Source: Adenophora triphylla var. japonica (lineage: Eukaryota > Streptophyta > Magnoliopsida > Asterales > Campanulaceae). From it: a stretch of 64,000 nucleotides of DNA. The position numbers and the translations under genes are program-made. The notes beneath the pieces were generated by a model. It was not told the origin of the DNA. It searched no databases and saw only the letters and a list, made by a program, of their open reading frames with translations. Positions 13,678 through 63,772 of the stretch are shown here, one piece after another (position 1 is the stretch's first letter; every line of letters begins with the position of its first letter). Location: contig JAFEMH010002492.1 in assembly GCA_022495995.1 (NCBI GenBank), forward strand, positions 1 to 64,000, written 5' to 3'.

Positions 13678-13714
<37 letters not shown>

Positions 13715-14778: not shown

Positions 14779-15066
14779 CTCCCTCCGTTCCGCCTGAAAA
14801 GTCACAAAATGGACCTCGCACGCAAATTAAGGAAAGTGATGTAGGAAAGAGAAAAAGTTTAAATGTTGTGAGTATGAAAAATTAAATAAGAGAGAGAATG
14901 AGTGGGAGGAATAGTTAGGAGAGAGAATGTTGTGAGTGTAAAAGTAAAGTAGGAGAGAGAATGAGTGGGTGGAATAGTAATAAAAACTTTCCTTTTTGGA
15001 AAAGTGTCTTTTTAAATGGGACGCCCAAAATGGAAATTTGTGGCTTTTCGGGCGGGACGGAGGGAG
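14779..15066. mobile_element. Stowaway/mariner-type MITE, TSD TA
   Basis: 288 bp with termini CTCCCTCCGTTCC and its inverted form GGGACGGAGGGAG, flanked by TA. The insertion is absent from units A and D, which shows the empty site. Confidence 0.92.
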
Positions 15067-15909: not shown

Positions 15910-17216
15910 GACACGTGTAAAGTTAAGATGATAATGTTCCCCACTTGCTTGGCTATATATACTCCCTCCATCCATTTTCAAGGTATGTTTTAAATTACAA
16001 GCTCTCTCTCTCTCTCTCTAGAAAATAAAGAATTATGTTGATATATGAAATGTTACGAATCGGATTGATGATTCTCACACCGGAGGGTTTGGGGAGAAAG
16101 GCCCCCCACCCCTAACGATGGTTTGTCTTGTAGGTCCCACATTACATCGGACCCGAGGGACGTTCATCCGGATCATACATCTTTGCCACCCCGATCAGTC
16201 CTGTGCAACCATTTTGGCATGGTAGCATCAAATATCTAACCATTTTATGCTTTCATGCTGTCAAGTTCGATCTGTGGGTGCCATTTTAGGTGGGACAAGA
16301 TGTTTTCTAATGTATGTAGAGTGGTCTGTGTTCTTCCATTGTTGTATTTGTTGTTTCTTCCACCTGTATTGTTGTGTTTTCTTTCTGTATCATTCGTTCC
16401 AAAATAAATGTTCATTTTTGTGATCCAAAGCAAAAAGACTTTCATTTTGGGACGGTGAGTGTTAACGGGAGTGGAAATAACAGATGAAGAAGTTGCTTAC
16501 TACTGATCTATTTCATAGTACAACTTTGATGCAACCTCTGTAATCGAATGCACAAGATGATGTCATGGTGAGATTGGTGGATCAACGGATGAAAATAATC
16601 TGGCCATTTGAGATTGCTATCAGGATTAATTAATCCAGTTCATTGATCTTCTGGGTAAGGGAAAGCTAAATATTGCAAGTTGTATTATCTGTGAGGGGTT
16701 ATTTTTTTTCAAAAAATGTTGGCAATCGGTTTCGATCCAGGGACCTGTGGGTTATGGGCCCACCACGCTTCTGCTACGCCACTCTGATTTGATAATGAGT
16801 TTTACTATTTTAAATATTTATCATTTGTGGGGCAACTAAAGCTTAAGATGACATTTACCAACAATATTATTATTGTTTTTAATAAGTGGTTGAATTCGGT
16901 AGGTTGGGCAATTTAATAAAGAGAGTTTGTATCAGAAATATACTTAATCTACACACTTATTGTTTTGAATAGTTTTTTTCTATCCCATTTCAAAATAAAT
17001 ATCTATTTTTATTTAAATTTAAAGGATATTTTGAAAATATTTATTTATTTTATAAAATTTAATAATAATAATAATGTATATATATTTATCATTAACTTTT
17101 AAAATTCTTAATTTTGAAAGCATATAATATAATGGAAAGTGGAAAATTTTGTTATAAAATGATTTAGGAACAATTACTTTTTTAAGATAGATCTTCATAT
17201 TGGATTTTTCTAGAGA
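15910..17216. repeat. Tandem segmental duplication, unit D (truncated)
   Basis: Collinear with units A and C until about 17,216, where similarity ends at TTCTAGAGAAT. It lacks the MITE and the minisatellite end. Confidence 0.85.
16728..16788 (-). pseudogene. Initiator tRNA-Met pseudogene, copy 3
   Basis: Keeps the 5' acceptor strand, D arm (with changes), CAT anticodon arm and part of the T arm, but the 3' T stem and acceptor are deleted, so it cannot fold as a tRNA. Confidence 0.88.
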
Positions 17217-17250
17217 ATAAACATTCAATTCATTTTTTTGAATGTTTATT
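17216..17250. other. Perfect 13-bp inverted repeat at the end of the tandem array
   Basis: AATAAACATTCAA (17,216-17,228) and TTGAATGTTTATT (17,238-17,250), loop of 9 nt. It lies exactly where unit D similarity stops. Confidence 0.8.
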
Positions 17251-17859: not shown

Positions 17860-18904
17860 AAGTTGTCATTTAATGATGGGTAGAATGATAACTTCACACA
17901 ATTCCATTTGAAATGGTGTATTTCCTAAATGAAGTGACTGTTAGTCTCATATATATATATATATGGCATTCCATCGGCCTTTAAAGACAAACAAAACATT
18001 CATATTTTCTCATACATCCTCTTCACAAAGTAATCGAAGATCAAGACAGGGCACTATCATTTAGAAGAACTTCATCTCCCTATTTTTTTTCTATTCTTCT
18101 TCTAGAACATCAAGACAATTGGCACGGCCGTGCGTTGTATGAAGCAAGGCCGCGCGTTGTATGAAGCACGGCCGTGCGGATCTACTTGCTCGGCCGAGCA
18201 CTTCTCTATGCTCGACCGTGTATCATTGTGTCGAATAACGATCCCATTGGCACGATCGCACGTTGTATGAAGCACGATCGTGCGGATCTACTTGCTCGGC
18301 CGAGCACATCTCTATACTCGGCCGAGCAACCACTGTATCAAGGTTTCATATTTTTCAATGAGTTTAGCACGGTCGTGCAGTTTGTAATGCACGGTCGTGC
18401 ACCGACATATTCAGCAGTTTACTTCATTTTTTTTGTAAAAACATACATTTTCAAGCTCATTTGTGATTAATTATATGCTTAACAATTATATGAATTTTTT
18501 AAATAATATTGTCACCAAAGTGATTTAATTTGTTTAGATCCAAAATTGTTAAGTGTTGAGTGTATACATTAATACGTAGATAACATGAATTTTCTAAAGA
18601 ATATCGTGTTATTTGACAAAATTTATACATTCATTTGGTAACAAGTAAAAGAGTATTAGTTAAGTCTTTCAGGTACTTAAATCGGCCCAGAGGAAGGTTA
18701 AGTATTTGATTAAAATATCGTTTAATTTCTTGGTTGCCTCAAGATAATTGCTTATAAGTCAACTCGCAATCCAAATATTAGTTTTGATGTCATTTTGATT
18801 ATCTTATAGATGGGATTCATTTGATATAATTAATCACTTAATTCATTATGTGTGTAGTTATTAATACATGTTTTGAATTTTCATTATTTGTTCTTATCCC
18901 CAAC
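17860..18904 (+). repeat. Probable LTR/leader of the plus-strand copia
   Basis: Noncoding A/T-rich sequence upstream of the copia gag with a TATA-rich run at about 17,949-17,965. Exact LTR ends and PBS are not resolved, and the matching 3' LTR is missing because the element is broken at 21,435. Confidence 0.4.
18121..18405. repeat. Cluster of GC-rich palindromes
   Basis: Contains GCACGGCCGTGCG, GCACGATCGTGCG, GCACGGTCGTGCA and GCTCGGCCGAGCA boxes, most separated by 20-35 bp of A/T-rich sequence. The same two motif classes occur in the LTRs of the copia at 27,269-33,269. Confidence 0.85.
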
Positions 18905-19710: not shown

Positions 19711-20106
19711 ATGGCATATGGTCTTGTTTGTACTGAGGCTAATTTGGTTTCAATTCCTTCATATACATGGTGGTTGGATTCTGGTGCAACAACTCACATA
19801 AGTATGTCTATGCAGGGTTGCCTAAATTACCGAAGACCTAGTGAAGATGAAAGATACATCTATATGGGAGTTGGAAATCCGGTTGAAGTAATAGGCATAG
19901 GGACTTTTAGATTGTTGTTATGTACTGGTTATTATTTTGTATTAAATAGTGCAGTTATTGTACCGTCATTTAGACGTAATTTAATATCAATCACAGTTTT
20001 GGACCGGGAAAGATATTTCTATTCATTTGGAAATAATAAATGTGATCTTTATTTTAATTCCAAAATTGTTGATACCAGTAATTTGTCAAGAAATGATAAT
20101 CATTAA
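19711..20106 (+). pseudogene. Copia protease remnant
   Basis: 131-codon open segment with the active site WWLDSGATTHIS and the downstream VIVPSFRRNLISI block typical of copia protease. It was once fused to the gag upstream. Confidence 0.8.
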
Positions 20107-27268: not shown

Positions 27269-28017
27269 TGTTGGTGATTTTAGTATCATCAACTTATTTT
27301 ATTGTAATGGTGATTTACTAAGAGATCAATGTGATTCGTATTAGACTCGGATACGAGTAAGGGAAAGTGTGGAGTACACACTCGTTTGAGCTAAAACGAA
27401 GTCAACCTCGATAAAGAAGTAAAAGTTAAAGGGTAGCACATTTTGCTGATGTGCTCGGCCGAGCAGAGTCCTTGACTCGGCCGAGCGAGAGCTTAGCTTG
27501 GCCAAGTTTACGGAGAGTCTTGCTCGGTCGAGGCATGTGCCTTGCTCGGCGAGCAGTATAACAACACTGGCCGTGCGATTCAAATGACACGGCCGTGCGG
27601 TGGCGAGAAAATCACTAGACATGTGTGCTCGGCGAGCGAGTCCACTTGACTCGGTCGAGCGGTTCTGAGCAGTGCCTTTTCAAAATGAAAAGACACATTG
27701 CTTGGCTAAAGTCATGTATTTTGATTGTACCCTTTAACTAATACCTCTCCATCTGTATATATACAGAGATTGATCTCATTTGTACATACATGAAAAATAC
27801 AAGAGTGATACAACAATAACGAAAGCAAAACAATTCTCAAGTTTTAGATTTGTTCTCTTTGCTTAGAAACAAATTGCGTGATTGTCTTATCCCAATAAAG
27901 ATTTTGTGTAACCCAGGCATTAAGGGTCGAAATACTTTATTCGGAAAGTGGATTATACACGATTCAATCACATATCCGACCTCAGTATCAAGATCAAGAC
28001 CCTATATTTCCCCTACA
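27269..28017 (+). repeat. Copia 5' LTR (749 bp)
   Basis: Starts TGTTGGTGATTTTAG, ends CCCCTACA. TATA box TATATATA at 27,756-27,763. Palindrome cluster at 27,450-27,665. Confidence 0.93.
27450..27665. repeat. CGGCCGAGC / CGGCCGTGCG palindrome cluster in 5' LTR U3
   Basis: At least eight boxes: GCTCGGCCGAGC, CTCGGCCGAGCG, TTGGCCAAG, CTCGGTCGAGG, GCTCGGCGAGC, CACTGGCCGTGCG, ACGGCCGTGCGG and CTCGGTCGAGCGG. It lies about 90-300 bp upstream of the TATA box. Confidence 0.85.
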
Positions 28018-32542: not shown

Positions 32543-33269
32543 TGTTGGTGATTTTAGTATCATCAACTTATTTTATTGTAATGGTGATTTACTAAGAGAT
32601 CAATGTGATTCGTATTAGACTCGGATACGAGTAAGGGAAAGTGTGGAGTACACACTCGTTTGAGCTAAAACGAAGTCAACCTCGATAAAGAAGTAAAAGT
32701 TAAAGGGTAGCACATTTCTTGATGTGCTCGGCCAGAAAGCGAGCTTAGCAGATTGGCGAGTTTACGGAGAGTCTTGCTCGGCGAGGCATGTGCCTTGCTC
32801 GGCCGAGCGATATAACAACACGGCCGTGCGATTCAAATGACACGGCCGTGCGGCTTAGCAAAAATCACTAGGCATGTGTACTCGGCGGCGAGTCCACTTG
32901 ACTCGGCCGAGCGGTTCTGAGCAGTGCCTTTTCAAAATGAAAAGACACATTGCTTGGCTAAAGTCATGTATTTTGATTGTACCCTTTAACTAATACCTCT
33001 CCATCTGTATATATACAGAGATTGATCTCAGTTGTACATACATGAAAAATACAAGAGTGATACAACAATAACGAAAGCAAAACAATTCTCAAGTTTTAGA
33101 TTTGTTCTCTTTGCCTAGAAACAAATTGCGTGATTGTCTTATCCCAATAAAGATTTTGTGTAACCCAGGCATTAAGGGTCGAAATACTTTATTCGGAAAG
33201 TGAATTATACACGATTCAATCACATATCCGGCCTCAGTTTCAAGATCAAGACCCTATATTTCCCCTACA
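32543..33269 (+). repeat. Copia 3' LTR (727 bp)
   Basis: Matches the 5' LTR. TATA at 33,008-33,015. The palindrome cluster (32,725-32,930) has several small deletions relative to the 5' LTR, while the flanks have only about six substitutions. Confidence 0.93.
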
Positions 33270-33278
33270 TATATTTGT

Positions 33279-33820
33279 TGATGTAATTGAGTTGCAGCGG
33301 AATAAAATAAATAGTAACCGGATAGGCAATTAATCGAAACAACGATCAATTGACCCAATTCGAATCCACGAATTAGGATTTGGCAAGATTAACACCTAAT
33401 AATAGATGAGAACCCCGAAGAACAGAAGGAATCCACCTTCAATAAGTCAAGAAAGACTCACAATTGCGAAAGCAATCAAATAAATTATCAAAATTCAACT
33501 TAATGATTACAAAAGCCCTAGCAACTATTTATAATAAAGGAAAGAACATTCTAGACCTAAAACCCTAATGAAAACCCTAATTAAAAATGGAATTAAGCTT
33601 GACAAAAATACCCCTAGCTTATTATTCAAGAGTAAGGAAACTAAAATAAAACTGCTGTTTATTCCGGCTCTTGCGCGGTCGCCCAGCTTTCTTGCGCGGC
33701 CGCCCACACGTACAGAAACTATTACGCCAAAATTCCTCCTGCGCGGTCGCCCATGATCCTTTGCGCGGCCGCCCACCGCCCGAGAACCATCTCCACGCCG
33801 GCTTGAACCGGATTACATCA
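33279..33820 (-). repeat. 3' LTR of small element (542 bp)
   Basis: Termini TGATGTAAT...ATTACATCA are a nine-base inverted repeat. Minus-strand TATA-like TTATAAATAG at about 33,526-33,535. Four GCGCGG(T/C)CGCCC boxes at 33,671-33,776. Confidence 0.9.
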
Positions 33821-33832
33821 TACACTCCCACT

Positions 33833-34579
33833 TTAAAAAGGATTCGTCCCGAATCCTTGTCTAACATTTGACATCTTCCATACCAAATAAAGAGATATTT
33901 CGAGTAAATTAAACTCTTTCGCACAATAGGACGGAAGATGATTTGAAATGCTCCGTTCCCATTTAAACAAATACTTGGAATAGATCCGCCTCTTCAACAC
34001 AAGTATAGGCAAACAAATCTCCTCCGGAAAAAGAATGATATAATCCGATCTATCATCCTTGTGTGGATCCTCCGAAAAAATTAAATCATCATTCACCTTG
34101 GACTCAATAATATGGGTAGGAATATTAGTGGCACATACCAGAATAACCTCGTCCTTTGCACCTATGTCTTCAACAATAATTTCTTCTTCAACAGGATATT
34201 CTTGGACAGGAATTTCTTCAACGACCATGCGATTTTCTTCCTCGAGACGCCTCAATTCAGCCTCCCTTCGTGCCTCAAAACGATGAATTCTTTTCGTATA
34301 AAGATCGATTTGGACAAGACATTGTTCAGCTTCTGCCCAAACAATATCCCTTTCATCGCGATATTTATCCACCATAAACTGATAACTTGTCTGGAATCGG
34401 CCGCTTTGAATCGCAGATTCCCAATAAAGCATCACATCATTCTTATAATCGGCCTCTTTATCAAGTTTATTAAACTTTATAGAAATTTTTCTTACTTGAC
34501 AACGATCAAACTTCAGACGCATCTCGATCTTCTCAAGAAGCGATTTTTCTTTCCCACCATTGTTGGTCATCTTCTCCAT
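33833..34579 (-). CDS. Unknown protein encoded by small LTR element (248 aa)
   Basis: Open from ATG at 34,579 (12 nt past the PBS; MEKMTNNGGKEK) to TAA at 33,835. The longer upstream frame runs through PBS and LTR, so the first ATG after the PBS is the better start. Residues ~15-130 are charged and helix-prone with likely coiled coil (RIHRFEARREAELRRLEEEN). Residues ~120-150 are very acidic and repetitive (VVEEIPVQEYPVEEEIIVED). The C-terminus is Arg/Lys-rich (LVLKRRIYSKYLFKWERS). No zinc knuckle, protease or signal peptide. It could be a diverged Gag-like packaging protein; function unknown. The intact frame and ~98% similar LTRs suggest recent activity. Confidence 0.75.
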   Translation of the reverse strand: MEKMTNNGGKEKSLLEKIEMRLKFDRCQVRKISIKFNKLDKEADYKNDVMLYWESAIQSGRFQTSYQFMVDKYRDERDIVWAEAEQCLVQIDLYTKRIHRFEARREAELRRLEEENRMVVEEIPVQEYPVEEEIIVEDIGAKDEVILVCATNIPTHIIESKVNDDLIFSEDPHKDDRSDYIILFPEEICLPILVLKRRIYSKYLFKWERSISNHLPSYCAKEFNLLEISLYLVWKMSNVRQGFGTNPF

Positions 34580-34590
34580 GGATCGAACCT

Positions 34591-34603
34591 GGCTTTGATA
34601 CCA
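34591..34603 (-). other. Primer-binding site of small element
   Basis: Minus strand TGGTATCAAAGCC, one mismatch from the initiator-Met-type TGGTATCAGAGCC, two bases from the LTR end. The same variant (TGGTATCAAAGC) is used by the Reina-like element at 40,668. Confidence 0.85.
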
Positions 34604-34605
34604 AC

Positions 34606-35149
34606 TGATGTAATTGAGTTGCAGCGGGATAAAATAAATAGTAACCGGATAGGCAATTAATCGAAACAACGATCAATTGACCCAATTCGAATCCACGAAT
34701 TAGGGTTTGGCAAGATTAACACCTAATAATAGATGAGAACCCCGAAGAACAGAAGGAATCCACCTTCAATAAGTCAAGAAAGACTCACAATTGCGAAAGC
34801 AATCAAATAAATTATCAAAATTCAACTTAATGATTACAAAAGCCCTAGCAACTATTTATAATAAAGGAAAGAACATTCTAGACCTAAAACCCTAATGAAA
34901 ACCCTAATTAAAAACGGAATTAAGCTTGACAAAAATACCCCTAGCTTATTATTCAAGAGAAAGGAAACTAAAATAAAACTGCTGTTTATTCCGGCTCTTG
35001 CGCGGTCGCCCAGCTTTCTTGCGCAGCCGCCCACACGTACAGAAACTATTACGCCAAAATTCCTCCTGCGCGGTCGCCCATGATCCTTTGCGCGGCCGCC
35101 CACCTGCCCAGAACCATCTCCACGCCTGCTTCGGAACCAGATTACATCA
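34606..35149 (-). repeat. 5' LTR of small element (544 bp)
   Basis: Nearly identical to 33,279-33,820. The four GC-rich boxes are at 34,998-35,103, one changed to GCGCAGCCGCCC. Confidence 0.9.
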
Positions 35150-36406
35150 TTTGTGGTCAAAGTTCAACAAAAAAGTCAAATGGGACAAACATTTTGGGAC
35201 GGAGGGAGTATATGATTAGAAGTTCTTAAATTACACAAATAGCGAAATGGACGATGTTATCCTAGGCTGTTATCTGCGAACCCTTGACACTCTTACAATT
35301 TTTTTTTTTTTTTAAATCTGAGCTTGTTATGGAAAGGCCTCATTTTCTTTTGACTATCCAGGTATGTGAACCTCGTTTCAACTTAACACACTTAACCCAA
35401 ACCCAATTACTTGTCGTTGGCTCCATTTCACTTCATTTCAGTGCTTGGTTCTGGTGAAACCGAAGTTCGCTCTAAGCTGGTAGCTGGTTTACCCTTCTTA
35501 AGATGTGGCCCTATGATTCATATTTAAGTGGCATGGCAAACTCGAAATGGTGGATCTAATTTATGGAATGCTTCTCATCTGGAAGATGTAGTTGATATTT
35601 TCTTGTATTATAAATGCATAGCAATTCTTGTAAGGGATAATGGAAGAACAAAAGGTTGGGAAATGCTTATTTTGCTTTATGGCCTTCACATTGCCAATGA
35701 ATTGGAGATCACTAACTAGAAGCCGTCTTTCAGATATAAGTTTCAGATTTATTTTCAAGCTGGTGGCATGGATAGAACTTGTGTCGTACTTTTGGCATCT
35801 TGAGGCAGTGGGGTAATCCCTAAATATATAACTGTGACCGCTCTTTTGAAGATTCCTAGGCCAAGACATTCTTTTTAACTGTAAACTTCTCTGTGTATTG
35901 CTTTGTAGTTCACCAAATAATCAGGCTAGGCTTGATTTATACGGAGTATATAACTAAGAAACACATCACTTGTTGATATAGGCGGTATGGGACAAATGCA
36001 ACTCTTCCACAGTACTAGCAGCTTGGAAATGCAACATTTTGCTTTCTGAAAACGTGATATAATCAAATTCAACATTGTCCGTTCCAATTTTGTGTTTTTT
36101 TTCGTGTGTTAAAACGAATGCTGTAGTTGATAACTGTGTTCCTTAATGCTTGTAACATCAATTAGCTGATCGCTGACATATATTATCTTTTCAGTATGGG
36201 CAGGATTTTCTGAAAGAACTCGAGATGGGAACAAGTTCATTGTAGCAGAAAGGTCAACAAATAGGGTGGGACGGAATTTCTGCACTGAGACAGCAGAATC
36301 CATTACCGAGGAGCAGAGGTTAAGAAAAGAATCAAATGGGTACTTTGATGAGAATGGAAAAGAAGATACTCCTGCTAACCTTCTTGATACAGTTTTTGGT
36401 GATTAA

Positions 36407-40217: not shown

Positions 40218-40664
40218 TGTAACGAATTAAGGTTCAAAGGAATTTGGGGATTACCGTTGGATTTGAAATAAGGGGATACGACGTCGTTGGTTAATAAGCG
40301 TATCAGCAAGTTCAATAGCGAGCTTAGCCATAAACGTTTTCTTTAAGTAGCACGTCGTCGTTTTGTAGCTTAATTAGTTTTAATTTCAGTTACTTAAAAC
40401 TACGTCGTTTTATAGTGAGAGAAGTGGCCGTTGTAAACCACGTGATTTCTCTCTCTTATGTCGCTGGGAAACGCCATTGTTGGCATAATGCATTTTACCA
40501 GAAATTTCCCAACTCTCTCTCTCTCTCTCTAATTCTCTAATTTCTCACTCATCTCATGCTCTGTATTCTCTCTAATTCTCTTCTCATCCAATCTATATCA
40601 AAATTCTCCGTTTCCATTTGAATTAATTGTCCTCATAATTGATTCAATTGGCCTGGGCATAACA
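40218..40664 (+). repeat. Reina-like 5' LTR (447 bp)
   Basis: TGTAACGAATT...GGGCATAACA. Contains ACGTCGT repeats and a CT tract near 40,510. Confidence 0.92.
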
Positions 40665-40667
40665 AAT

Positions 40668-40680
40668 TGGTATCAAAGCA
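40668..40680 (+). other. Primer-binding site of Reina-like element
   Basis: TGGTATCAAAGCA, initiator-Met type with one mismatch, three bases after the LTR. Confidence 0.88.
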
Positions 40681-40698
40681 ATTGAATTCACGGAAAAA

Positions 40699-41830
40699 CA
40701 TGGTTAGTGTTCGCATGAATGCAGTGGAATCAAACATCAGGTCATTAGAAGAGAAATTTAATGGGCTTGAAGGTGTTGTAGAATCAAGAACAACGGAGCT
40801 GAAGGAGGAGATGACGGCGCTGAGTAAGGGAATGGAAGAAATGACTCGGTTGTTGATGGAGATGAAATCCAACAATGGCAAGGACAAAGTGGATGAAGCT
40901 GGGCGATGTTTAAAGGGAAATAGCAGCGCTGGATCAATCCTAGGAGCGTCACCTGGAGTTGGTAAGCAGATCCCAGCTAATGAACATGAGAAACAAGGTA
41001 AAACATGTAATGAGGCTATTTTTAGTGATGATTCTACTAAGGCTATTAAAGGGGCTGGTTATGGGCATGAGGTTAGATCTGATAAAGGGATTAGTGAATC
41101 ATATAAGAAACATTTCAAATTGGAATTTCCAAAGTTCTCTGGTATTGGTCATAGGGGTTGGATTCATAAGTGTCAATAGTTTTTCAAATATAGAGATGTT
41201 CCATTGGGTGATAGGGTGGAATTAGCTACGATGCATTTTGAAGGTGGTGCTGAGTTTTGGTACCAAAACTTTTGTGAGGAGATTGATGGGTGTGCGTGGG
41301 AAGAATTCATTGACAAGGTGGCCATTAGGTTTAGGCCTTAAGCTTATCAGAATGTGGAAGGGGAGTTTGCAAGCCTGCAACAGCTGAGCTCAGTCAGTGA
41401 ATATCAAGCCAAGTTTGAGAAAATGAGGGCATTGATGAAGGTGGAAAATACTGGATTGAGTGAGAGGTTTTACATTAAAAACTTCATTAAAGGACTCAAG
41501 GAAGAAATAAGATTTAGAGTGCAATCTCAATTCCCATCTACCCTTACTCAGGCAATCAACTTGGCAAGGATTGAAGAATCACATTGGGAAGCATCCATCA
41601 GGAAACTTAAGTCAGTCACCTATAAACCCAACCCAAATTATTCCTCATACACCACAAACAACCAGTCCAACACTACAATATCTCAGCCTACCAAAATGAA
41701 CCCCAGTAATACCAAATATTCCCAGTTTTCCTCACCTTCCATTAACCAAGTTAAGGATAATTCAGCAGCCACAAAACCTACCATTCCCATTAAACACTTA
41801 ACACAGGCTGAAATGCAAGCTAGGAGGGAG
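40699..41830 (+). pseudogene. Reina-like gag, two in-frame stops
   Basis: Begins MVSVRMNAVESNIRSLEEKF (coiled coil). Stops TAG at 41,177 and TAA at 41,339 lie in the same frame as the rest (LATMHFEGGAEFWYQNF, SVSEYQAKFEKMRALMKV, FIKGLKEEIRFRVQ). No normal CCHC knuckle follows: the position reads ARREKGLFYNCDEVFKYGLKC. Confidence 0.85.
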
Positions 41831-41989
41831 AAGGGCTTATTTTATAACTGTGATGAAGTCTTCAAATATGGTCTCAAATGCAAGAATAGACAGATCTTCA
41901 TGCTGGGAATCGAAAATGGAGAAGAAGAGGAGGAATGGCATGATACATTAGACACACATGTGGAAGAAATAGAAAAAGTGGACCAGCCA

Positions 41990-42631
41990 AAGGAGGATTT
42001 GAGCATCTTAACACATGCTCTGTCTGGGAGTACAACATTGCAGACTCTCAAACTTACGGGAAAGGTGGGCAATAAGAAGTTCTCAGTGCTCATTGATAGT
42101 GGAAGCACTCACAACTTCCTAGAGGCCAACACAGCTGAGAAATTGGGATGTGTAGTGACACCCACACCCGAGGTACCTGTGATTGTAGCAGATGGCAGCA
42201 AAATACAAAGTCAAGGAGAGTGTAAAGGGTTCAGGTGGAAACTGCAGGATATTGAATTTGTGGGAGATATGAAGGTTATTAAGCTAGGGGGTTGTGATGC
42301 AGTTTTGGGAGTGCAATGGCTCAAAACACTAGGGCCTATAACTTTCGACTTCAATGAGATGTCAATGGGGTTCAACTATATGGGAAATTATTGTACATTG
42401 CAGGGGGTACAACATGCCATGATGCTGAAGTTTATGACAACCCCAACAGCTACAAAATTGCTGAATGATCTACCTTGTGGGGCAGTGGTTCAATTGTATT
42501 CACTATCTGTAGTAAATGATGAAGGGGAATTGGACATACAAATTTCGACACTATTGGATGAGTATGAAGATGTTTTTGCAGAGCCCAAGGAGATGCCACC
42601 AAGGAGGAAATTTGACCATGCAATACCCTGA
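41990..42631 (+). pseudogene. Reina-like aspartic protease and linker
   Basis: In frame with gag. Active site VLIDSGSTHNFLEANTAEKL, then VIVADGSKIQSQGEC and GCDAVLGVQWLKTLGPITFD. The frame ends at TGA 42,629-42,631 and RT continues in another phase. Confidence 0.88.
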
Positions 42632-42644
42632 AAACTGGAAGCCA

Positions 42645-43266
42645 ACCAGTGAACAATAGGCCTTACAAGTGTCCCTACTTCCAGAAAAATGAGATTGAAA
42701 AGATCATCAAAGAGCTATTGGACAGTGGAGTGATCCAACATAGCTAAAGCCCCTTTGCCTCACCTGTGATATTGGTTAAAAAGAAGGATGGTACATGGAG
42801 AATGTGTATTGATTATAGGGGCTTAAATCAATTGACTGTCAAAGATAAATTTCCTATTCCAATCATAGATGAGTTGTTGGATGAGCTACATGGGTCCAAG
42901 TTCTTTACTAAGTTAGATTTGAGGTCATGGTATCATCAAATCAGAATGAGGGAAGAAGACATCAGTAAGACTGCATTCAAAACACATCATGGACATTATG
43001 AGTTCAAGGTGATGCCCTTTGGACTCACAAATGTACCAGTCACCTTCCAAGCTCTGATGAACTCAGTATTTGAAGATTTTATGAGGAAATTTTTATTAGT
43101 ATTCTTTGATGATATACTAATATATAGTCCTACCATGGAACTGCACTTAGTCCATCTCAGATTAACATTGGAGAGGTTAAGAGAACATCAATTGTTTATG
43201 AAGAAAAGCAAATGTTCATTTGGGAGAGATAAGGTGGAGTATTTGGGGTACATAGTTACGGGGAGG
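42645..43266 (+). pseudogene. Reina-like reverse transcriptase, N-terminal part
   Basis: NRPYKCPYFQKNEIEKIIKE, a stop at 42,745, then [41 protein letters not shown] and FFDDILIY (YVDD box variant). RT stops at [11 protein letters not shown] where a solo LTR is inserted at 43,271. Confidence 0.9.
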
Positions 43267-43270
43267 GTAG

Positions 43271-44686
43271 GCGAATGTATGCTCGCCGAAATTAAAAGTT
43301 TTTGGGAGTCGCCACGCCTGCTTTTAATGGAAAAACATTGAAAAACCAATTTGAAAATAGAGAGATAAGGTTCGGGGGTCAGGTTACATGTTGGGAAGAA
43401 CCGAGAGTTCACCCAACACGCCTCGTAATACGAGTCTTTCTATAACATAACATCCAATCATTCATGAGTGTGTGCAAGGGTGTGAAACGAATTATGGCAA
43501 ATATTCTTTGCTTTTATTGATAAACTGAGGAACTACAACTTGTGAACCATTTGGTAAGGGAGGCCACATCCCAATTACAACAAATTCTGAACAGAGCATA
43601 CAACTGAAATGAACCTTCTGCCAGAGGCTACTTGTGTCACGTGACACAGGACTCCACATGTCCAGTTGTGTCGCGTGACACTAATGGCCACTTTGCAGAG
43701 GCTTTATAAGGCTCAAATTACAGTACCATCAAATAACCATAACATCGAATTACATCATGAATTGAATTCAGAGAGCATGGAAATTAAAAAATGACATTCA
43801 AGAGGGTGTGGATATGGGGAATCCACACTCTCTTGATGAACATGCACCAATATATCAACTCATCCCATAAAACCAACAACATGGAACATGTAATTCACTA
43901 TAGCATTGGAGACTTAAACAGAGAGATTGCAGTCAGATCATTAGCAGCTTGTGCATGAGATCAAGGAGAAAATAGAGAGAGCTAGAGAGAGGGATAGAAA
44001 TCGTTACCCTTGTAGTCCACTTTCCACTATACCAAGTCGATATAGGGAACCTTCAATCAGCTTCTGAAACTAGATTCAAGCTCAGGAACAATGGAGGATT
44101 GGATCCTCAATGAGGGTATGAGTGTATAGAGAAGAACTTGGGTGGTTTGTAAAGAGAGATGGGGGAATTGGGAGGAATTAGTGTGTGTTTGTGTGTGTTT
44201 TAGGAGAGAGAGAGAGGTTTCTGGCGTGATTTTGACAGAGTAACCTTAGGGAGGCTAGCAGGGATCCCAAAATGAGAGGGGAAGGGTCTTATTTATAGCT
44301 GCATGGGAAGTGGCTACTTCTTTCGCACGGCTGAACAAAGGTAACCATTTTCCTTCTAGAACATGCAAGGTGGCAGCTTGGAATGATCGCCATGGCTTGT
44401 TGTGTCGCACGGCTAAAGGAGGCATAATCATTTTCCTTCTGGAAGCATGCTAGTTGGCGTATTCTGGACCTTTCTTTGATAATTCCTTATAGGTCCCAAC
44501 TGAATAATACCTCACAAGTCCTTCTGCATGGAAAAAGGACCGAAAGGCACTTCCTTAGCAAGAAACTTATAAAAAGCTCCCGAAAGTCTCGGAATGGACC
44601 GGAAATATACCAAAATGCACCCTAATGTACTTTTATTATGTAAAAGACACTTTTATTGGGTCGCAAATTGGATTGGGGTACTTACA
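43271..44686 (-). mobile_element. Solo LTR (1.4 kb) inserted in RT, TSD GTAG
   Basis: In minus sense it starts TGTAAGTACCCCAATC at 44,686, as in the LTR family at 8,136-11,080. TATA box at 44,289-44,298. It also contains GTGTCACGTGACAC at about 43,634-43,647. GTAG is duplicated at 43,267-43,270 and 44,687-44,690; removing the insert restores an uninterrupted RT frame. The left terminus lacks a TG/CA signature, so the end is provisional. Confidence 0.7.
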
Positions 44687-45423
44687 GTAGCAACTGATCC
44701 CACAAAGATCGAAAGCATGCAAGGATGGCCCATCGATACCTCTATTAAAAGTTTGAGGGGATTCTTTGGGTTAACTGGGTATTACAGGAGTTTTATAAGG
44801 CATTATGGAGTAATTAGTAAGCCATTGACAAAGCTGCTACAGAAGAATGCCTTTGGATGGAATGCAGAAGCTGACAAGGCTTTCCAAACACTGAAGCAAG
44901 CCATGATTTCTGCCCCAATTTTGGTTATGCCTGATTTTTTGAAAGCATTCATTGTGGAGACTGATGCTTGTTCCAATGGCTTGGGTGATGTGCTAATGCA
45001 AGAGGGAAATCCTATAGCTTTTGTTAGCAAGGCTTTAGGACCTAAACACTTGGGAATGTCAACTTACGAGAAGGAATTCCTAGCAATCTTGTTGGCTGTG
45101 GAGAAATGGAGGTACTACTTGTGTGGGCAGAAATTTTAAATAAAAATAGACCATCAAAGCTTAAAATACCTCATGGAGCAGAGGGTTACTGGAGGTTTAC
45201 AACAGAAATGGATTTCGAAATTGTTGGAAGATGATTATACAATAACATATAAGAAGGGGGTAGAAAACAAAGTGGCGGATGCTTTATCAAGGTTGAATGA
45301 GGATACAAATGGGGTGAAATGTCAAGCTATTACCATTGTCCAACCTCAATGGGTCCAAGAGGTAATAGGTAGCTGGGAAGGAGATACTGAGATCCAAGAA
45401 ATATTAGAGGGGGTAATGACCAA
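44687..45423 (+). pseudogene. Reina-like RT end and RNase H
   Basis: VATDPTKIESMQGWP and LRGFFGLTGYYRSFI (connection), then RNase H: FIVETDACSNGLGDVLMQE, STYEKEFLAILLAVEKWRYY; a TAA follows GQKF at 45,137, then DHQSLKYLMEQR and VADALSRL. Cut at EGVMTN by the Tat element. Confidence 0.88.
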
Positions 45424-46079
45424 TGAACATACCAAAAGTGTCGAGTTAGGCCAAGTGGGTAAAGCCCAATCATATACAGCCTTGACTCCCACATTTTCAA
45501 TGATCCTGGCCCAATCAAAGCAAGGCCCAAGGCCCATCTCAAATATCAGTCGACTAAGTCCATGGACCGACCTAACAGGTCCCGACCTAACTTAGTCCGA
45601 CCTCAGATTCCGTATTACAATTCGGGTACGAACCATGCTCTACCCGACAGTCAGGTCGACCATCCCTCGAATGGCAACCTCGACCTAAATAACAAGTGAC
45701 GACCTGACACTTACTGGCGTATTTGGTTGAACAATTCTCATAACCACATCCCTACAAATCAGGGACCGTTATAGGCACGTTCCCATGACCAAGTAACTGC
45801 CGCTACAATCTCGGAGCACTTGTCGCCTCCCCAAAAATACATCACTCTTGTCTATAAATACTTCATCACTACCAAACGGTGAAAGGTAACTGCCATTTTG
45901 CTATTGGAATTCAGTCATTCAATACATTTTGAGCTTTATACAACTGTGTTCTTACTCACGCCCGAGGGTCTTCGCCGAGACACATCCGGCTAGTCGTGGG
46001 TTCGATTTCGTGTCAAGGAGCCAGGTGATTCGTCCCGCCACGTGGAGGAAGATTGATAAGCACAATTCCCGCAGATCGC
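45424..46079 (+). repeat. Tat-type 5' LTR (~656 bp)
   Basis: TGAACATACCAAAAGTG start. TATA box TATAAATA at 45,853-45,860. Its last ~20 bp differ from the 3' LTR, so the right end is approximate. Confidence 0.88.
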
Positions 46080-46101
46080 TTGGTTCCATTGCCGGGAATC
46101 G
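46080..46101 (+). other. Probable primer-binding site of Tat element
   Basis: TTGGTTCCATTGCCGGGAA follows the LTR. It has the TGG start and resembles TGGCGCCGTTGCCGGGGA-type sites at several positions. Confidence 0.5.
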
Positions 46102-46142
46102 TGCTTAAAGCTTGACCTCGAAACTCTTCTCAACCTACAACC

Positions 46143-47676
46143 ATGGTAACCCCAGACGGGCATGTGGAAGATGCTTCTGAAGAATTCATTGAAGTGAACA
46201 ACAACATCAACACAAACGCTGGAAATCTCAACGTCAATGCTGAACACATGGATTTACATCCTCCCCCACCCAATCGTCCTCATGGTAGAGCCACGCGCTT
46301 TACCAGTGTTGTTGATGGCAGAGGATTGCCTGACACAAGGAGAGGGAAAAGGCATATGGAAGGACAAGGAGTCCCACCTCCTCCTAAGCGTCCAACTGGA
46401 CAGGTGAACATGGGGAACAGGGCAGGTCCCTCAATTAATCCCATGAGCAAGAAGGAAATGATGTTAGAACGAGCTCAAATCTTGGCTGACTTGATAGCCA
46501 TGGAGGAGGCAGAGCAGGCCGACATACGGTCAGAAAGAGTGGCTCCCACTCGTGTCTCGATAAGCATCGTGCCAGAGTGCTAGGCCAAATGAGGGTGTAG
46601 GATGTAATGGCGAGGACAGATAGTTCGCCGAGCTCCCACTATTGTTCATGTGCCAAGTAACGACCTAAGGGCTAGCCTCACTGTAAACAGGAGCAGTGAG
46701 GCTCAATCCGATTTGAGGACGCAATTAACCGCCAATGTAAATAGACGCATTTCTCCAAAGACGGACACAGAGATCGGGTCTCATAGAGACAGAACGGGCG
46801 CAGTCGCCTATAAGAGAGGAGAGGCGCAGTCGCCACTGGGATAATAGGCGCAGTCGCCATCCTGCGCCGATAGGCGCAGTCGCCACAAAGAAATGACAGC
46901 ATAAATCTCCACCCGATCGTAGAGAGCTCATTCTCACGCAGACAGGAGGAGTAGGCAGTAACTCCCCCTTAAGTGAAGGTCGAAGTCAAATGTTGTTCCC
47001 TCCAGAGATGAAAGACCCGACGCCCGGAATGGTTGTTGATGAAAAAGAAATTTGAACAATGGGAGGAGGAGAAGAAAAAGGAGACTCGGAAAGGTTGAAC
47101 GAGTTGATTTTGCTCTTCGACCTCTATCCAAGGAGATGAGAGACAACCGACCTCCTCCAAGTTTCGCACTTCCCTATTGGAAAAGTACTGGAGCCACCAA
47201 TGCAAGAAGTCACATAGCACACCTGGAAGCCACGATGTGCTTTGTTGCCAATGAAGACGACAATATGTGCAAAGCCTTAATAAGTACCCTCACAGGAGCA
47301 GCCTTTACGTGGTTTAATGGGTTGGCAGCTGGCAGCATTACCACCTGGACCTGTTTAAGAACGAAATTCTCGCTTCTCGACTGCCGGAGCTCGGAAGGTG
47401 ACTGTCACTGATCTGAACAACTTGGTGCAGGCCAAAAATGAAAGCTCCATGAGCTACTTCACCAAGTTTAAAGAAATGGTGGACAAGATTGAAGAGGATC
47501 TCACCGACAGAGAGGTGATCAACTGCTTCCGGAGTGGTATTTCCTCGGAAGACATAGATTATGAGCTCACAGTTCGTACACTCACAACTCGACAGGAGTT
47601 GTTCGAAAAGGTGTATAACGTTGCTCTGGCCGAGGAAAGGAAAGAGAAGAAGAATGGTAAGAGCCCAAAGATTTAG
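46143..47676 (+). pseudogene. Tat gag, frameshifted
   Basis: Start MVTPDGHVEDASEEFIEVNN, Pro/Arg-rich middle, then the capsid core in 47,160-47,676: TMCFVANEDDNMCKALISTL, TGAAFTWFNGLAAGSITTW, MSYFTKFKEMVDKI and LFEKVYNVALAEER. Three frames. The part 46,600-47,050 is out of frame and contains GGCGCAGTCGCC repeats. Confidence 0.85.
46796..46882. repeat. GGCGCAGTCGCC boxes, four copies
   Basis: Four exact copies of the 12-mer GGCGCAGTCGCC with spacers of 10-20 bp, plus CCTGCGCCG. It resembles GCGCGGTCGCCC in the LTRs at 33,671 and 62,744. Confidence 0.88.
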
Positions 47677-48239
47677 GTCGCCGATGATAAGAAAGAACCC
47701 AACAAGAATGGAGGAAACAATAAAAATGGGAAGAACAGGACTAGGGCAACAAAGAAGGTGCCCGAGGCTTTCACTCCCCTTACGGTGAGTCGAACAGAAA
47801 TTATGAATGCCGTCGAGCCGCTCCTCCCCGTCCCCATGAACCTGTGCAACAAGTTCAGAGAGACAAATGTTAAGTATCATGTGATTACCACAAGGACACG
47901 GGTCATCTAACGTAAGATTGTTTGGGTTTGAAGTGTATTATCCAAAGAATGATCAACCCGGGAGGCTCGACGCTTATGTGAAAAGGCCTCAAGCCGGTGG
48001 GGGCGAGCAGCCACAGTGGACAAAGAAGGTCCGAGGCAACCTAGATTGAACCCTGGGGTCATTATCAACAAGCAAGCAACACACCATCAAACACAAGATC
48101 TTTCACCAACAAAGCCCCACATGTACCTCCAAGGAGAGATGTAAGAGATGAAGTGACTCGCCTACCCTCATAAATTGGCAACTAATATGGCGGCTAGGGA
48201 GCAAGTTCTCGTCATCCTGTGTCTCATAGACGGATGTAC

Positions 48240-48573
48240 GACTTGAGCAGTACTCTTAGTCGACACGGGGCTCGCAAGGATATCTTGTTCTACAAGACTT
48301 TCAAAGAGACGGGTCTTAATGACGAGCAAACTTGAAAGATATGATGGTAGGTTGGAGGGCTTCACCAACCATCGAGTTGATGCTAAAGGCCAGATAGAGC
48401 TCGACGTCGACCTAGGCCATCACCCCCAAAGGATTGTGTCAAAGGTACAATTTATCGTGATTGATGTAAATAGTGACTACGCTGCCATACTTGGTATTCC
48501 TGGACAGGTCGCTCTTGGAATGGTGGCATCGATCCCTCATCAACGAGTCAAGTTCCCCACACTGCCGGAGTAG
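48240..48573 (+). pseudogene. Tat aspartic protease
   Basis: VDTG followed after a shift by KDILFYKTFKETGLNDE, then LEGFTNHRVDAKGQIELDV and KVQFIVIDVNSDYAAILGIP, matching the LGRP block as LGIPG. Confidence 0.8.
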
Positions 48574-48602
48574 GCTGCGTACAAGGCACAACTCGAGCCT
48601 AC

Positions 48603-49163
48603 TTGGACCATGTTCTTCGGGAAAGAAAGAAGAGAGAGCTTGAGATCGAGACGGCAGATGGTTATTTAAAGCTGTCTCAATCAGTCACCAAAACTACTCG
48701 GCTGTCTACAATCGCCAATGTGGAAGAGTCGACCTATCGCTCAAATGACGAGGTCATGCTTGAGTCGACACGTCACTCTAACACCACAGAGGTCGATCCA
48801 GATGTATTTATGGTCGACCAAGTCCTCATAGGCAACCTATGCCTCCAGCTCGACAATAACTCGGGGGCCACCACCACCACCAGCGAGGTTGCAGACAAGT
48901 TGGATGACATGATAGCTGAGGAAGCTCCACATTTGGGAGCTGAGGAAAGGCAAAGGGTCAGAGAGATAATAATTGAGACTCTACAATTCAGGGATGGACC
49001 AGAGCTAGAAGCTGTGGACGAACTAGAGTCGCAATTACCAACCTTTCCTACCCCGACCAAAAATTCAGATTGGAAAGCAAACTATCACTTGAGGAGCGAG
49101 CGTAAATCATCGAGCTACTCAAGGAGAGTAATGATGTCTTCGCATGGAGGGCAGAGGACATGA
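48603..49163 (+). pseudogene. Tat PR-RT linker region
   Basis: Open 186-codon segment, acidic, without recognised motif. Tat elements have a variable spacer here. Confidence 0.6.
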
Positions 49164-49835
49164 GGGGAATCAAGGAAGAGGTCGCCGTTCACAGACTTGA
49201 AGTTAACCCGACCATAAAGCCTAGACCCCAAAAGTTGAGAAGTTTTGCTCATGACAAGGAAGAGGCTATTAAAACTGAGGTGCAAAAACTTTTAAGTGCA
49301 GGGATAATCAAGGAGGCCACTCATACAACGTGGTTGGCCAACGTGGTCATGGTGAAGAAATCAAATGGCAAATGGAGGATGTGCGTCGACTTCACCACTC
49401 TAAACCTTGCTTGCCCAAAGGATAGCTATCCTCTTCCTAGAATTGACAAGCTTGTTGATTCCATTCTTGGCCACTCTACTCTCGCTTCCTGGATGCTTAC
49501 TCGGGTACCACCGCATAAAGATGCACGAGGATGACATTGTGAAAACGGCATTTCAAGCAGCTGGAGGCATCTACTGCTATAACATGATGCCCTTTGGATT
49601 GAAGAATGCAGGGGCGACTTATCAAAGAATGGTGAACAAAGTCTTTGCTTCTCAAATTGGCCGAAACATGGAGGCTTACGTCGACGATATGGTCATCAAA
49701 ACAAAGACTGGACGTCACGTGGTCGACCTAAAGGAAACGTTCGCCAATTTAAGAGCAAACGACATAAAGCTCAACCCTAGCAAGTGTGTCTTTGGAGTTG
49801 CACTGAAAGTTCCTTGGATTCATGGTGTCCCGTAG
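49160..49835 (+). pseudogene. Tat reverse transcriptase
   Basis: RPQKLRSFAHDKEEAIKTEV, WRMCVDFTTLNLACPKDSYP, then (frame changed near 49,500) YHRIKMHEDDIVKTAFQ, MMPFGLKNAGATYQRMV and AYVDDMVIKT, the intact YVDD catalytic box at about 49,676-49,690. Confidence 0.9.
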
Positions 49836-49959
49836 AGGTATAGAGGCTAACCCGAAAAGATCAAGGCTCTAGTCGAGATGAAGGAGCCTACAAGTATAAA
49901 AGAGATGCAACACTCAATGGCAGTGGTGGCACCCTAGGTCGCTTTATATCCAAGTCGGC

Positions 49960-50994
49960 CGAAAGGTCTCTCCCCTTCTTCAAATCATTAAGTGGGGACG
50001 AAAACTTTGAGTGGACGGCCGAATGTCATTCGTCGTTCCAACAACTCAAAGAATACCTTGCTACTCCTCCACTCCCGAGCAGCCCGACCACCGGTGAGAC
50101 CTTGTTCGTGTATTTGTCTCATGGGAGACAAGTCGGTTGGGTATAGCCTTGATCGCAGAAGAGGAAGGGCTTCAAAACCGCATACTACATCAAGCAAGGC
50201 CTTATCAGATGTGGAAAGCAGATATTATAATGCTGAGAAGGTCGCTTATGCTCTAGTCGTGGCTTCAAGGAAACTGCGAGCTTATTTCTTGGCTCACCCA
50301 ATTGTGGTTCTTACTAATGCGCCTTTGAGAAAGATATTGCACAAGCCGAGAGTTCAGCCGACCGCTCAATTGGTCAATTGCCCTTACCGAATTTGACATT
50401 GAGTATCGACCTCGAAAGGCACCGAAGGCTCAAGCTCTAGCCGACTTCTTGGTCGAGCTTACGTTCACCAAGGAAGACGACGAGCAAACGAGCTCCAAAG
50501 GAAAAGGTTAAGGGAAAGAACACGAGTGCCAACCCGCCATTGCTCTACCCGACGATTGTTGGAAGGTTTATTCGCATGGATCACGACCAAAAATGTTAGT
50601 GGAGCCGGGATTGTCTTGATCGAGCGTAGTCCTGGAACCGTGTATGAGGAATCACCGAGGTTCAAGTTCGATGCTTCCAACAACCAAGCCGAATACGAAG
50701 CCTCGATAGCAGCCTATAGAGTACGCCAAGTGTTTTGGAGCGACTAAGATCATGGCTTATTGTGATTCACAACCGATAGTCAACTGTGTCAAAGGCGAGT
50801 ACGAAGTGCTTAGTTCCACTCTAATCAAATACTCGCGACTCGGTAAAGGAGTTGATAAAAGACTTGGAATTCTCGGGAGATTCGTGAGGATTGGACGGGA
50901 AGACAACGAGCTAGCCGACCTCCTCTCGAAATTAGCTACTTCGTATGAGCCACATGATGAGCCCATCTCCTTCCTCGAAAATCCAAATTTATGA
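49960..50994 (+). pseudogene. Tat RNase H plus second (archaeal-type) RNase H
   Basis: First domain degraded: FKSLSGDENFEWTAECHSSF and LATPPLPSSPTTGETL, then YYNAEKVAYALVVASRKLRAY. Second domain in pieces: ERSPGTVYEESPRF, FDASNNQAEYEASIAAYR, then MAYCDSQPIVNCVKGEYEV and EDNELADLLSKLATSY. A second RNase H is a hallmark of the Tat lineage. Confidence 0.8.
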
Positions 50995-51189
50995 AAGGGT
51001 AAAAATTCAATGCATAGATGATCCCTCGAGAAATTGGACTCATGAGAAGTGTTGTCGATCGAGGAAATGAAGGCGTACCTAGAAAGCGGCGAGCCGCCCG
51101 ATGACGAGAATAAAGCTCGAGCTATCAAAAGAAAGCTCCAAGATACGTCATTCAAGGAGGCGACCTATTCGTAAGATCATACACTCGAC

Positions 51190-62214: not shown

Positions 62215-63748
62215 TGATGGATGTGTATTTACCCATCCAAATGATGCATTTTTAGGCTTTCTTTGTGTTTGATTCCCGAGTTTTATGTATGTTTGATATG
62301 GTTTGTTAGTGTTTTGATAGTTCAGGGGCTGAAGCGCAACAATGCTGAAATCTGGGACAAAACTGACATTTGGAAGTTCAAGGACCAAATGGGAAATATT
62401 GGAAAATTCAGTGACTGAACGGGAAATATGGAATTTTTGGGCGAATTTAATTTATAAAAATTCCTGGGTTAAAATGAAAAATAAAATCTCAAAGAGCGAA
62501 GTGCAAAAGAAGTCATTATAGTGGTCAAAGTGCGAAAGCAAAATCGCAAGACGAAACGAGTATATATTAATACAAACCAAGGCCATTGCATTGCCAAGGT
62601 GGTCGGCCACGCGCTGCAGTGCCGGCGAGAGAAAGAAGAGCAATTTGGGGCCAGGAGGAATGGTAATTGGGCCAAGCAAATGGGCAAGGCTGGCCGAATC
62701 AGTGTAGCAAACCTTCTGCCAATAAGGGCGTCCGCGCCAATTCACCTGGGCGACCGCGCTAAGCAAGGAATTCTCGGCCAAAGTTTCTGTTCACTAGGGC
62801 GACCGCACCATCACCAATTGCGGCCGCGCTTCACCCGATTCAGCACCAGTTTTTCAGCATAAATGAAGGGCATTTTTGGAATTTCTCAACCTAGATTGTT
62901 ACCCTAATTTTTTATATATATTCTTAGCCACGGTAGAGAGATCACATCTCAGATCATATCACATATCATATTTTAGAGTTTGGATTTTTCTTTAAACAAT
63001 TATTTGAAGAAGGAGAATTCATCAATCCAGGTTTTATTTTTTGTAAATTATGAGTAGCTAAATTCCTTAGATTTGTAGATTGTTTTGATCTTCACCGGAT
63101 TTCTATGCATTAATATTTTAATTCTTTCTATTTAATTTCTTCTAGTTCAATAATAAATCTTAATTTCTTGTTCTTAGATTTGAGACGTATGTTAAGATAC
63201 GAACTCGTCTTTGAATAATTGGGTATCGAATTCGCCATTAATTTGAGATCTTGATACATAGACCATTATTGATTGAATAACTTGGTCTGTGCCGTAATAG
63301 AATCAGATCAATGTTAGGTTCTTTAATTCTTTCGTGCTTATTGTATTCTTGGCATATTGTGGAACCGTAATAGAATTCACAATATTAAAAGAGTATTTAG
63401 GATTGTAATCCGGCCATCTAACCGTGTCGATCCTAGCTAAAGTGAATGAACCCTAGAAGTTGAGTTGATGTTTTATAAGTAAAATTCTGCATAGAATGAT
63501 GGTAAAGTGAAATCCAATCTACGAATCTCTGCTCATAATCTGTTTTCTCGTTTATTTAGTTTTTGTTATTTATTTTATGCTCTTAGTTTAAATCAAATCT
63601 ATAAACTGTGGTTATTCAATTCACTGCTTTTACTTTACTTGCTTACCAACGAGTCTCTGTGGATTCGACCCCTGCATTTGCATACTGCTACACCGATAGT
63701 GAGTACACTTGCTCGGTTTTTATTACAAGAGGGAGTTTTCCTCCATCA
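62215..63748 (+). repeat. Athila-like 5' LTR (~1.53 kb)
   Basis: Starts TGATGG, ends CCATCA (inverted termini), followed six bases later by the PBS. TATA TATATATA near 62,912. Four GC-rich boxes at 62,724-62,832. Confidence 0.8.
62724..62832. repeat. Four-box GGGCGNCCGCGC array in U3
   Basis: GGGCGTCCGCGC, GGGCGACCGCGC, GGGCGACCGCAC and GCGGCCGCGC with spacers of about 10, 37 and 11 bp. The order and spacing match the small LTR element at 33,671-33,776 read on its sense strand. Confidence 0.85.
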
Positions 63749-63754: not shown

Positions 63755-63772
63755 TGGCGCCGTTGCCGGGGA
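63755..63772 (+). other. Primer-binding site of Athila-like element
   Basis: TGGCGCCGTTGCCGGGGA, a PBS typical of plant Athila elements. Confidence 0.88.

Follow-up and report, generated by a model that had tools for sequence, protein, structure and literature searches.

The long terminal repeats (LTRs) of Sireviruses carry RM boxes, repeated palindromes, all but one with a CGG-CCG core, that are numerous, sit ahead of the TATA box in the LTR's upper half and form CpG islands (PMC2829016). A regulatory role has been proposed for them, with the factor given as unknown, and in the parts of that account cited here they are reported from 13 elements as a Sirevirus-specific feature of Copia elements, absent from classic ones (PMC2829016). 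As far as those parts and the sequence likeness go, the RM box is the closest known feature to the boxes described in this study, which lie in 64,000 nucleotides of contig JAFEMH010002492.1 of Adenophora triphylla var. japonica (the window). We found four 12-bp boxes of the type GGGCGNCCGCGC in the unique 3′ (U3) region of a small LTR element (33279-35150, minus strand) and of an Athila-type LTR (62215-63748, plus strand), arranged in a module that the two otherwise unrelated LTRs appear to share. Other elements follow this box grammar too, since Copia-type arrays in the window use it as well.

The four-box module

With at most one mismatch, GGGCGNCCGCGC occurs 11 times in the 64-kb window against 0.12 expected, and none of 100 shuffles reached 11. 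The small element accounts for eight of the sites, spread over both its LTRs (minus strand), and the Athila-type LTR (plus strand) for three, and all share one orientation relative to transcription. The fourth box of the Athila-type LTR, TTGCGGCCGCGC at 62818, has more than one mismatch and is outside this count, and a weak fifth box, CTCGGCCA at 62773, lies inside the long spacer of the same LTR. In the sense direction, a core scan gave core-to-core steps of 22/47/21 bp in the small LTR and 22/49/21 bp in the Athila-type LTR, which equal the gaps of the four-box architecture that a first-pass annotation of this DNA had described in both. The long-spacer motif AGGAATT...AGTTTCTGT and the downstream motif GGG(C/T)ATTTTTG, which it had also seen in both, have three matches each in the window, confined to the small-element and Athila-type LTRs. 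The modules and the TATA-like motifs downstream of them are:

33673..33774, minus strand: four-box U3 module of the small LTR, 12-bp boxes at 33763, 33741, 33694 and 33673
35000..35101, minus strand: module copy in the small element's other LTR, with C to T (sense) in the box at 35021
62726..62829, plus strand: four-box U3 module of the Athila-type LTR, boxes at 62726, 62748, 62797 and 62818
33527..33533, minus strand: TATAAAT, the likely TATA box of the small LTR (LTR offset 287, the sole such motif in the LTR)
62913..62919, plus strand: TATATAT, a TATA-like motif downstream of the boxes (motif scan of the LTR)

The boxes precede the TATA-like motif by 139-241 bp in the small LTR, by 83-187 bp in the Athila-type LTR and by about 93-305 bp in Copia element B (described below), and a position of the module before the promoter is likely on these motifs.

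The similarity of the small and Athila-type LTRs is limited to the module of about 105 bp. Strict local alignment of the whole LTRs returned the module alone with a score of 49 (shuffles: mean 24.6, largest 35, 0/200 reaching this score). With the module removed, no match above chance was obtained for the upstream parts (231/300 shuffles as good) or the downstream parts (112/300). Permissive scoring extended the alignment across most of the small LTR with a score of 42, and the whole beat all 200 shuffles; the flanks alone were ordinary under this scoring (89/200 and 35/200 shuffles as good). End-to-end homology of the two LTRs, named beforehand by the first-pass annotation as an outcome contrary to its claim, was rejected on flanks that align at chance under both scorings; nor, with one copy per family, did the spacer match vanish, the other contrary outcome that it had named. 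The annotation had left two origins open. Because the flanks without the module match no better than shuffles, the idea that the small element as a whole descends from the Athila-like family, with a changed primer, is not supported. A shared U3 module moved between lineages agrees with the module-limited similarity, and the route of its transfer is a proposal of ours. On this comparison of one copy per family (small element and Athila-type), a U3 module shared by the two elements is supported.

The long spacer alone matches at a level reached by 0.0001-0.00015 of 20,000 shuffles, and the case for descent depends chiefly on this likeness of sequence. Between the two modules the short spacers show no such likeness (p 0.70 and 0.92) and keep their length (10/10 and 9/9 bp in the 12-mer frame).

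The elements that carry the module

The small element spans 1.9 kb, and its LTRs are 97.8% identical (self-BLAST, 33279-33821 / 34606-35150). It has the features of an LTR retrotransposon, namely an LTR pair, TG..CA ends, a primer-binding site (PBS), a polypurine tract (PPT) and a target-site duplication, read from the sequence as TTTGT on both sides:

33279..33820, minus strand: small-element LTR, the 3′ LTR in the sense direction, ends TGATGTAAT...ATTACATCA (self-BLAST pair)
34606..35150, minus strand: small-element LTR, the 5′ LTR in the sense direction (self-BLAST pair, ends)
34580..34603, minus strand: PBS TGGTATCAAAGCCAGGTTCGATCC, which resembles the complement of initiator tRNA-Met (iMet) in a by-eye comparison
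33821..33834, minus strand: PPT AAAGTGGGAGTGTA; a similar tract precedes the LTR of the chromodomain element (by eye)
33833..34630, minus strand: internal open frame of 265 aa

By eye, the 24-base PBS differs from the window's own tRNA-Met gene by three bases, with one missing, and extends into the T arm of tRNA-Met. The element looks non-autonomous, because its internal frame matched no Pfam family and had no homologue in a large protein database (0 hits among 294 candidates). A Ty3 chromodomain lineage is its possible parent; the iMet-type PBS and the ACAAGGATT...GGGAGTG tract of the chromodomain element at 40218-59452 resemble those of the small element, by eye only.

The small element directly adjoins the 3′ end of Copia element B, its TTTGT target abutting the TATAT duplication of the Copia element (33262-33283), and its outer flanks (33262-33283 and 35150-35215) resemble by eye the two ends of one repeat like a miniature inverted-repeat transposable element. 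Partial tandem repeats at 11082-17219 (offset about 2.3-2.5 kb, 91-97% identical in self-BLAST) contain two tRNA-Met genes on the minus strand (11899-11971 and 14414-14486), whose sequence starts with ATCAGAG, as does that of initiator tRNA-Met. The tRNA type of these repeats also appears to prime the small element. An extra TATCAAAGC at 23280 is a possible primer site of a further LTR element not shown by the self-BLAST census.

The other carrier of the module, only the 5′ part of which lies in the window, is represented by:

62215..63748, plus strand: Athila-type LTR, the 5′ LTR, TGATGGATG...CCTCCATCA, of an element that continues past the window end (64000)
63755..63772, plus strand: PBS TGGCGCCGTTGCCGGGGA, adjoining the Athila-type LTR

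We take TGGCGCCGTTGCCGGGGA to be of the Athila/Tat type, and an Asp-type PBS beside a long LTR, the mark of an Athila-type Ty3 element, was found at the 62215-63748 LTR. The primers of the two elements differ, as the first-pass annotation had stated, the small element having an iMet-type site and the Athila-type element TGGCGCCGTTGCC. The 64 residues of the latter that fall in the window gave no Pfam match, its coding part lying outside the window. About 0.8 kb upstream of this LTR, tandem repeats with a unit of about 63 bp occupy 61038-61397, as seen from self-matches at offsets of 127, 190 and 253.

Box arrays in Copia-type elements

Further box arrays are found in two Copia-type elements:

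27269..28017, plus strand: 5′ LTR of Copia element B, box array at 27453-27660 upstream of TATATAT (self-BLAST)
32543..33269, plus strand: 3′ LTR of Copia element B, box array at about 32776-32912 (self-BLAST)
18122..18400, plus strand: array A, 11 boxes, mostly GC(A/T)CGNNCG(A/T)GC, within the LTR or leader of another Copia-like element

Copia B is about 6 kb long with 0.75-kb LTRs, and its frames match the Pfam families Retrotran_gag_2, Pol_BBD, rve and RVT_2. The array A element has a Pol_BBD domain in the frame 19711-20103 and is otherwise Copia-like by eye only.

The grammar was searched for as 12-mers NNNCGNNCGNNN with at least four of six complementary pairs. The window contains 49 such near-palindromes, compared with an average of 20.8 and a maximum of 30 in 50 shuffles. 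Adjacent sites stand 21 or 22 bp apart in 13 of 48 intervals, against a shuffle average of 0.02 (at most 1 in 50 shuffles), and only one overlapping pair (4 bp) falls below 21 bp. These 13 intervals come from array A, both LTRs of Copia B, both LTRs of the small element and the Athila-type LTR, and two elements are thus counted with both their LTRs. Set beside the 11 GGGCGNCCGCGC sites, they lead us to reject a chance origin of the boxes. Core sites with at most one mismatch form ten clusters of at least three sites, seven of which are these arrays; the remaining three (5058, 6876 and 24275) are without any 21/22 step. No box cluster was found in the LTR pairs 40218-40664/58986-59452 (chromodomain element) and 45420-46069/56934-57587 of the self-BLAST census, which single-LTR elements would escape. 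Inside the nested element 45420-57587, the stretch 52427-52913 consists of tandem repeats of about 96 bp each.

Linkers were analyzed in a hand-picked list of boxes from the core scan and the near-palindrome scan, with one core mismatch allowed. Eighteen of 27 are short and nine are of 28-50 bp. When near-identical short linkers are collapsed, 11 distinct ones remain, all of 9 or 10 bp with a mean identity of 31%, of which the four from the modules are not independent if the modules share descent. Short linkers therefore keep their length, not their sequence, as expected for phased protein sites. Some of the long gaps contain boxes that are decayed or lack one base (CTTGGCCAAG at 27497; GCTCGGCGAG at 27544, 27627 and 32776; CTCGGCCA at 62773 in the Athila-type long spacer). 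Array A is partly tandem, with a 22-bp unit in 2.6 copies and repeated linkers. Simple tandem duplication as the source of the steps covers this part of array A and leaves the 11 dissimilar linkers, and it was rejected.

The Copia B LTR aligned with the small and Athila-type LTRs at chance level (148/200 and 61/200 shuffles as good). Because the Copia-type arrays use the same grammar, a serious alternative to descent is convergence on one shared host factor, that is, unrelated LTRs could have gained similar boxes independently in answer to the same factor, with no common ancestor of the modules. This would account for Copia arrays that share the grammar with other flanking bases and no alignable sequence, for the unrelated short spacers of the two modules and for LTRs that are otherwise unrelated. 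However, the match of the long spacer includes both its ends and falls at the corresponding position, and the orientation, number and steps of the boxes agree, which makes convergence rather unlikely in our judgment.

Folding, LTR differences and CpG content

The sense RNA of the Copia arrays folds strongly, with z of −3.78 (A), −6.53 (B2) and −5.21 (B1) and 0/200 shuffles as good in each case. The sense RNA of the shared module showed no excess folding, with z of −0.25 in the small LTR and +0.28 in the Athila-type LTR (folded as a stretch that stops 2 bases short of the end of box 4). Differences between the two LTRs of Copia B are concentrated in the box array, a hotspot with 20 events in 212 bp inside against 8 in 538 bp outside (Fisher p 1.7e-6); other gap settings gave 13-25 events inside and 6-8 outside (p 2.7e-4 to 9.5e-9). 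Several of these differences (27453-27660 vs 32776-32912) are one-base indels in box cores, and the array differences reflect either instability caused by the palindromes or errors in assembling such GC-rich sequence. The module of the small element is no such hotspot (1 event per 102 bp inside, 9 per 440 bp outside).

These data bear on the idea that the boxes are RNA or single-stranded DNA hairpins or small-RNA elements, with palindrome-rich U3 transcripts folding and feeding silencing small RNAs, as is reportedly the case for maize Sireviruses, where such small RNAs silence the element. The Copia arrays fit this idea in their folding and in the hotspot of the Copia B array, but the shared module lacks sense folding, is no hotspot in the small element, and includes several boxes that are not self-complementary (GGGCGACCGCGC). 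A hairpin as the shared function was thus rejected for the module and retained for the Copia arrays, and as an account of the boxes in general we regard it as quite unlikely. Since the Copia arrays fold and the shared module does not, folding belongs to the perfect palindromes and is not the common denominator. That denominator, the CG..CG dyad with two-turn steps, points to a protein on DNA.

The CpG observed/expected ratio is 1.14-1.49 in the five stretches measured, compared with 0.82 for the whole window. The boxes might therefore be CpG-dense marks for DNA methylation or chromatin, similar to CpG islands, and involve no sequence-specific activator. This excess is in line with such marks, as is the C to T change at a CpG in one box of the second small LTR, and Sirevirus RM boxes are said, in the part of the source cited, to define CpG islands (PMC2829016). 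CpG density, however, needs neither 9-10 bp linkers nor a fixed 12-bp dyad, and we consider this explanation very improbable.

Among protein candidates, the GCC box was considered; GCCGCC is the ERF core, and it is present in the complement of GGGCGGCCGCGC. The A-variant boxes and the Copia boxes are without GCCGCC, and ERF binding as the whole answer was rejected. CAMTA-, LBD- and BZR-type sites were also considered as possible candidates.

Searches for further copies

In viral contigs, the module pattern retrieved 10 loci (GC 0.56-0.66), none with two boxes (exact 10-mer) less than 600 bases apart. The box-pair patterns retrieved two and two loci (GC 0.61-0.66) with 1, 1, 0 and 1 adjacent 21/22-bp pairs; single pairs therefore do arise in GC-rich viral DNA. 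The PBS pattern gave no locus in viral contigs, and a search with a Ty3 reverse transcriptase fragment yielded five stretches and no relatives. A PBS search of genome contigs found two loci (L011 and L012), both with 0 boxes, L012 being a weak negative, since its sequence on the LTR side runs to just 1.1 kb or so. Both are short contigs with an Athila/Tat-type primer site, filed under the actinobacteria Streptomyces clavifer and Blastococcus endophyticus, and because their GC content is 36.5% under these labels, they are probably plant contamination of bacterial assemblies.

Interpretation

On balance, we lean towards a phased array of protein-binding sites in U3, a module of which has been exchanged by recombination between the Athila-type and small elements. 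The four-box module would be an upstream enhancer-type array of the LTR promoter, in which each 12-bp GGGCGNCCGCGC box may serve as a binding site on DNA for a host protein, which is probably dimeric because the boxes carry a CG..CG dyad. Box pairs 21-22 bp apart correspond to two helical turns, so the bound proteins would lie on the same face of the DNA and could act jointly on the TATA box 80-240 bp downstream, and the Copia-type elements in the window use the same grammar. The GGGCGNCCGCGC module with its AGGAATT...AGTTTCTGT spacer probably passed between the Athila-type and small elements by U3 recombination, for example through template switching between co-packaged RNAs. The boxes, their spacing, the restriction of similarity to the module, the TATA-like motif beyond them and the lack of excess folding in the module's sense RNA are observed; that proteins bind there, cooperate and enhance transcription, and that recombination moved the module, is our inference.

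Several observations weigh against this interpretation. The 47-49 bp between the pairs amount to about 4.5 turns, so one face is not kept across the whole module, and none of the known plant factors was matched to every box variant. The comparison covers one copy of each family. For each long spacer, equally good matches occur at two unrelated places in the window (42,642 37-mers scanned on both strands in steps of three positions), and the weight of the spacer therefore comes from its place between the boxes. The grammar held in common with the Copia elements is architecture, not sequence homology. The Athila-type LTR has two more TATA-like motifs, at LTR offsets 238 and 346, upstream of its boxes, and the boxes of array A, whose LTR ends are not established, are downstream of its only obvious TATA-like run; for these two reasons the promoter position is likely, not firm. 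The first-pass annotation had placed the module roughly 80-250 bp upstream of the TATA box, which agrees with the TATA-like motif downstream in both LTRs and is weakened by the upstream pair. In antisense folding, which covered the small and Athila-type modules, the small module folds somewhat (z −2.32, 3/200 shuffles as good), and the Athila-type module shows no excess (z +0.34).

We put forward only tentatively a broader version of the phased, exchanged array, in which one host factor or family reads the two-turn grammar across Copia and Ty3 LTRs, the GGGCGNCCGCGC module acts as a transferable U3 cassette, carried from lineage to lineage by recombination, and the non-autonomous element would thereby be transcribed in step with its Athila-type partner. 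Strict 21-22 bp steps across several retroelement classes suggest one host regulator exploited by all of them. A U3 cassette shared by LTRs with no other relationship would mean that plant retroelement promoters evolve as modules, apart from the coding lineage.

Comparison with known systems

Like RM boxes, the boxes of the window are repeated near-palindromes with a CGG-CCG-type core and, in the small, Athila-type and Copia B LTRs, precede a TATA-like motif; array A differs in placement, not lying before its obvious TATA-like run. RM-type boxes are described in the cited parts of the source as private to Sireviruses (PMC2829016), whereas here they occur in an Athila-type LTR, a small, apparently non-autonomous, iMet-primed element, and Copia-type elements without Sirevirus signatures. 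The cited parts of the RM-box account mention no fixed spacing, in contrast to the 21-22 bp steps found here, and GGGCGNCCGCGC is absent from the 13 motifs of its Table 3 (PMC2829016).

Within the window, the Sirevirus PBS TATCAGAGC (after the CA/ATTGG junction) is confined to the two tRNA genes. The primer sites are instead TATCAAAGC in the small element and TGGCGCCGTTGCC in the Athila-type element, and neither is present in Copia B. No Sirevirus PBS was found near array A, whose own PBS was not identified, and the array A element has no Sirevirus signature. Of the multiple AGGGGGAG PPTs of Sireviruses, the window has two (46962 and 53446), neither beside these LTRs, the 3′ end of the Athila-type element lying outside the window. 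Copia B is nearer to the averages given for 'classic' Copia elements (5.6 kb, with 0.56-kb LTRs) than to a Sirevirus, as far as the cited parts of the source go (PMC2829016).

Del LTRs (Ty3 chromoviruses) have a CpG-rich, length-variable 5′ region, which the authors linked to escape from host control; these 5′ CpG islands are absent in the eudicot Del group, and the main text has no mention of palindromes or Athila (PMC4029996). An LTR profile study described inverted repeats in part of the U3 5′ end of Sire LTRs and tandem repeats in the Tnt1 U3, most Retrofit/Sire U3 being seemingly random and C-poor, and neither 'Athila' nor 'GC-rich' appears in its main text (PMC3601003). Among the titles and abstract openings listed for open-licence PMC literature, we found no such boxes outside Sireviruses, which weakly supports their absence from print.

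For the proposed exchange, recombination of Onsen is a precedent among retroelements, but within one family, according to the portion of the report cited (PMC5668417). Non-autonomous pararetroviruses, a different element class, share the regulatory DNA of their partner through region-specific recombination, again in the portion cited (PMC5491270). Unlike both cases, the pair described here has different primers and LTRs that are unrelated outside the module. Autonomous and non-autonomous elements of soybean have reportedly swapped LTRs as well. There, whole LTRs are said to come from another family, whereas here about 105 bp of U3 only would have been exchanged.
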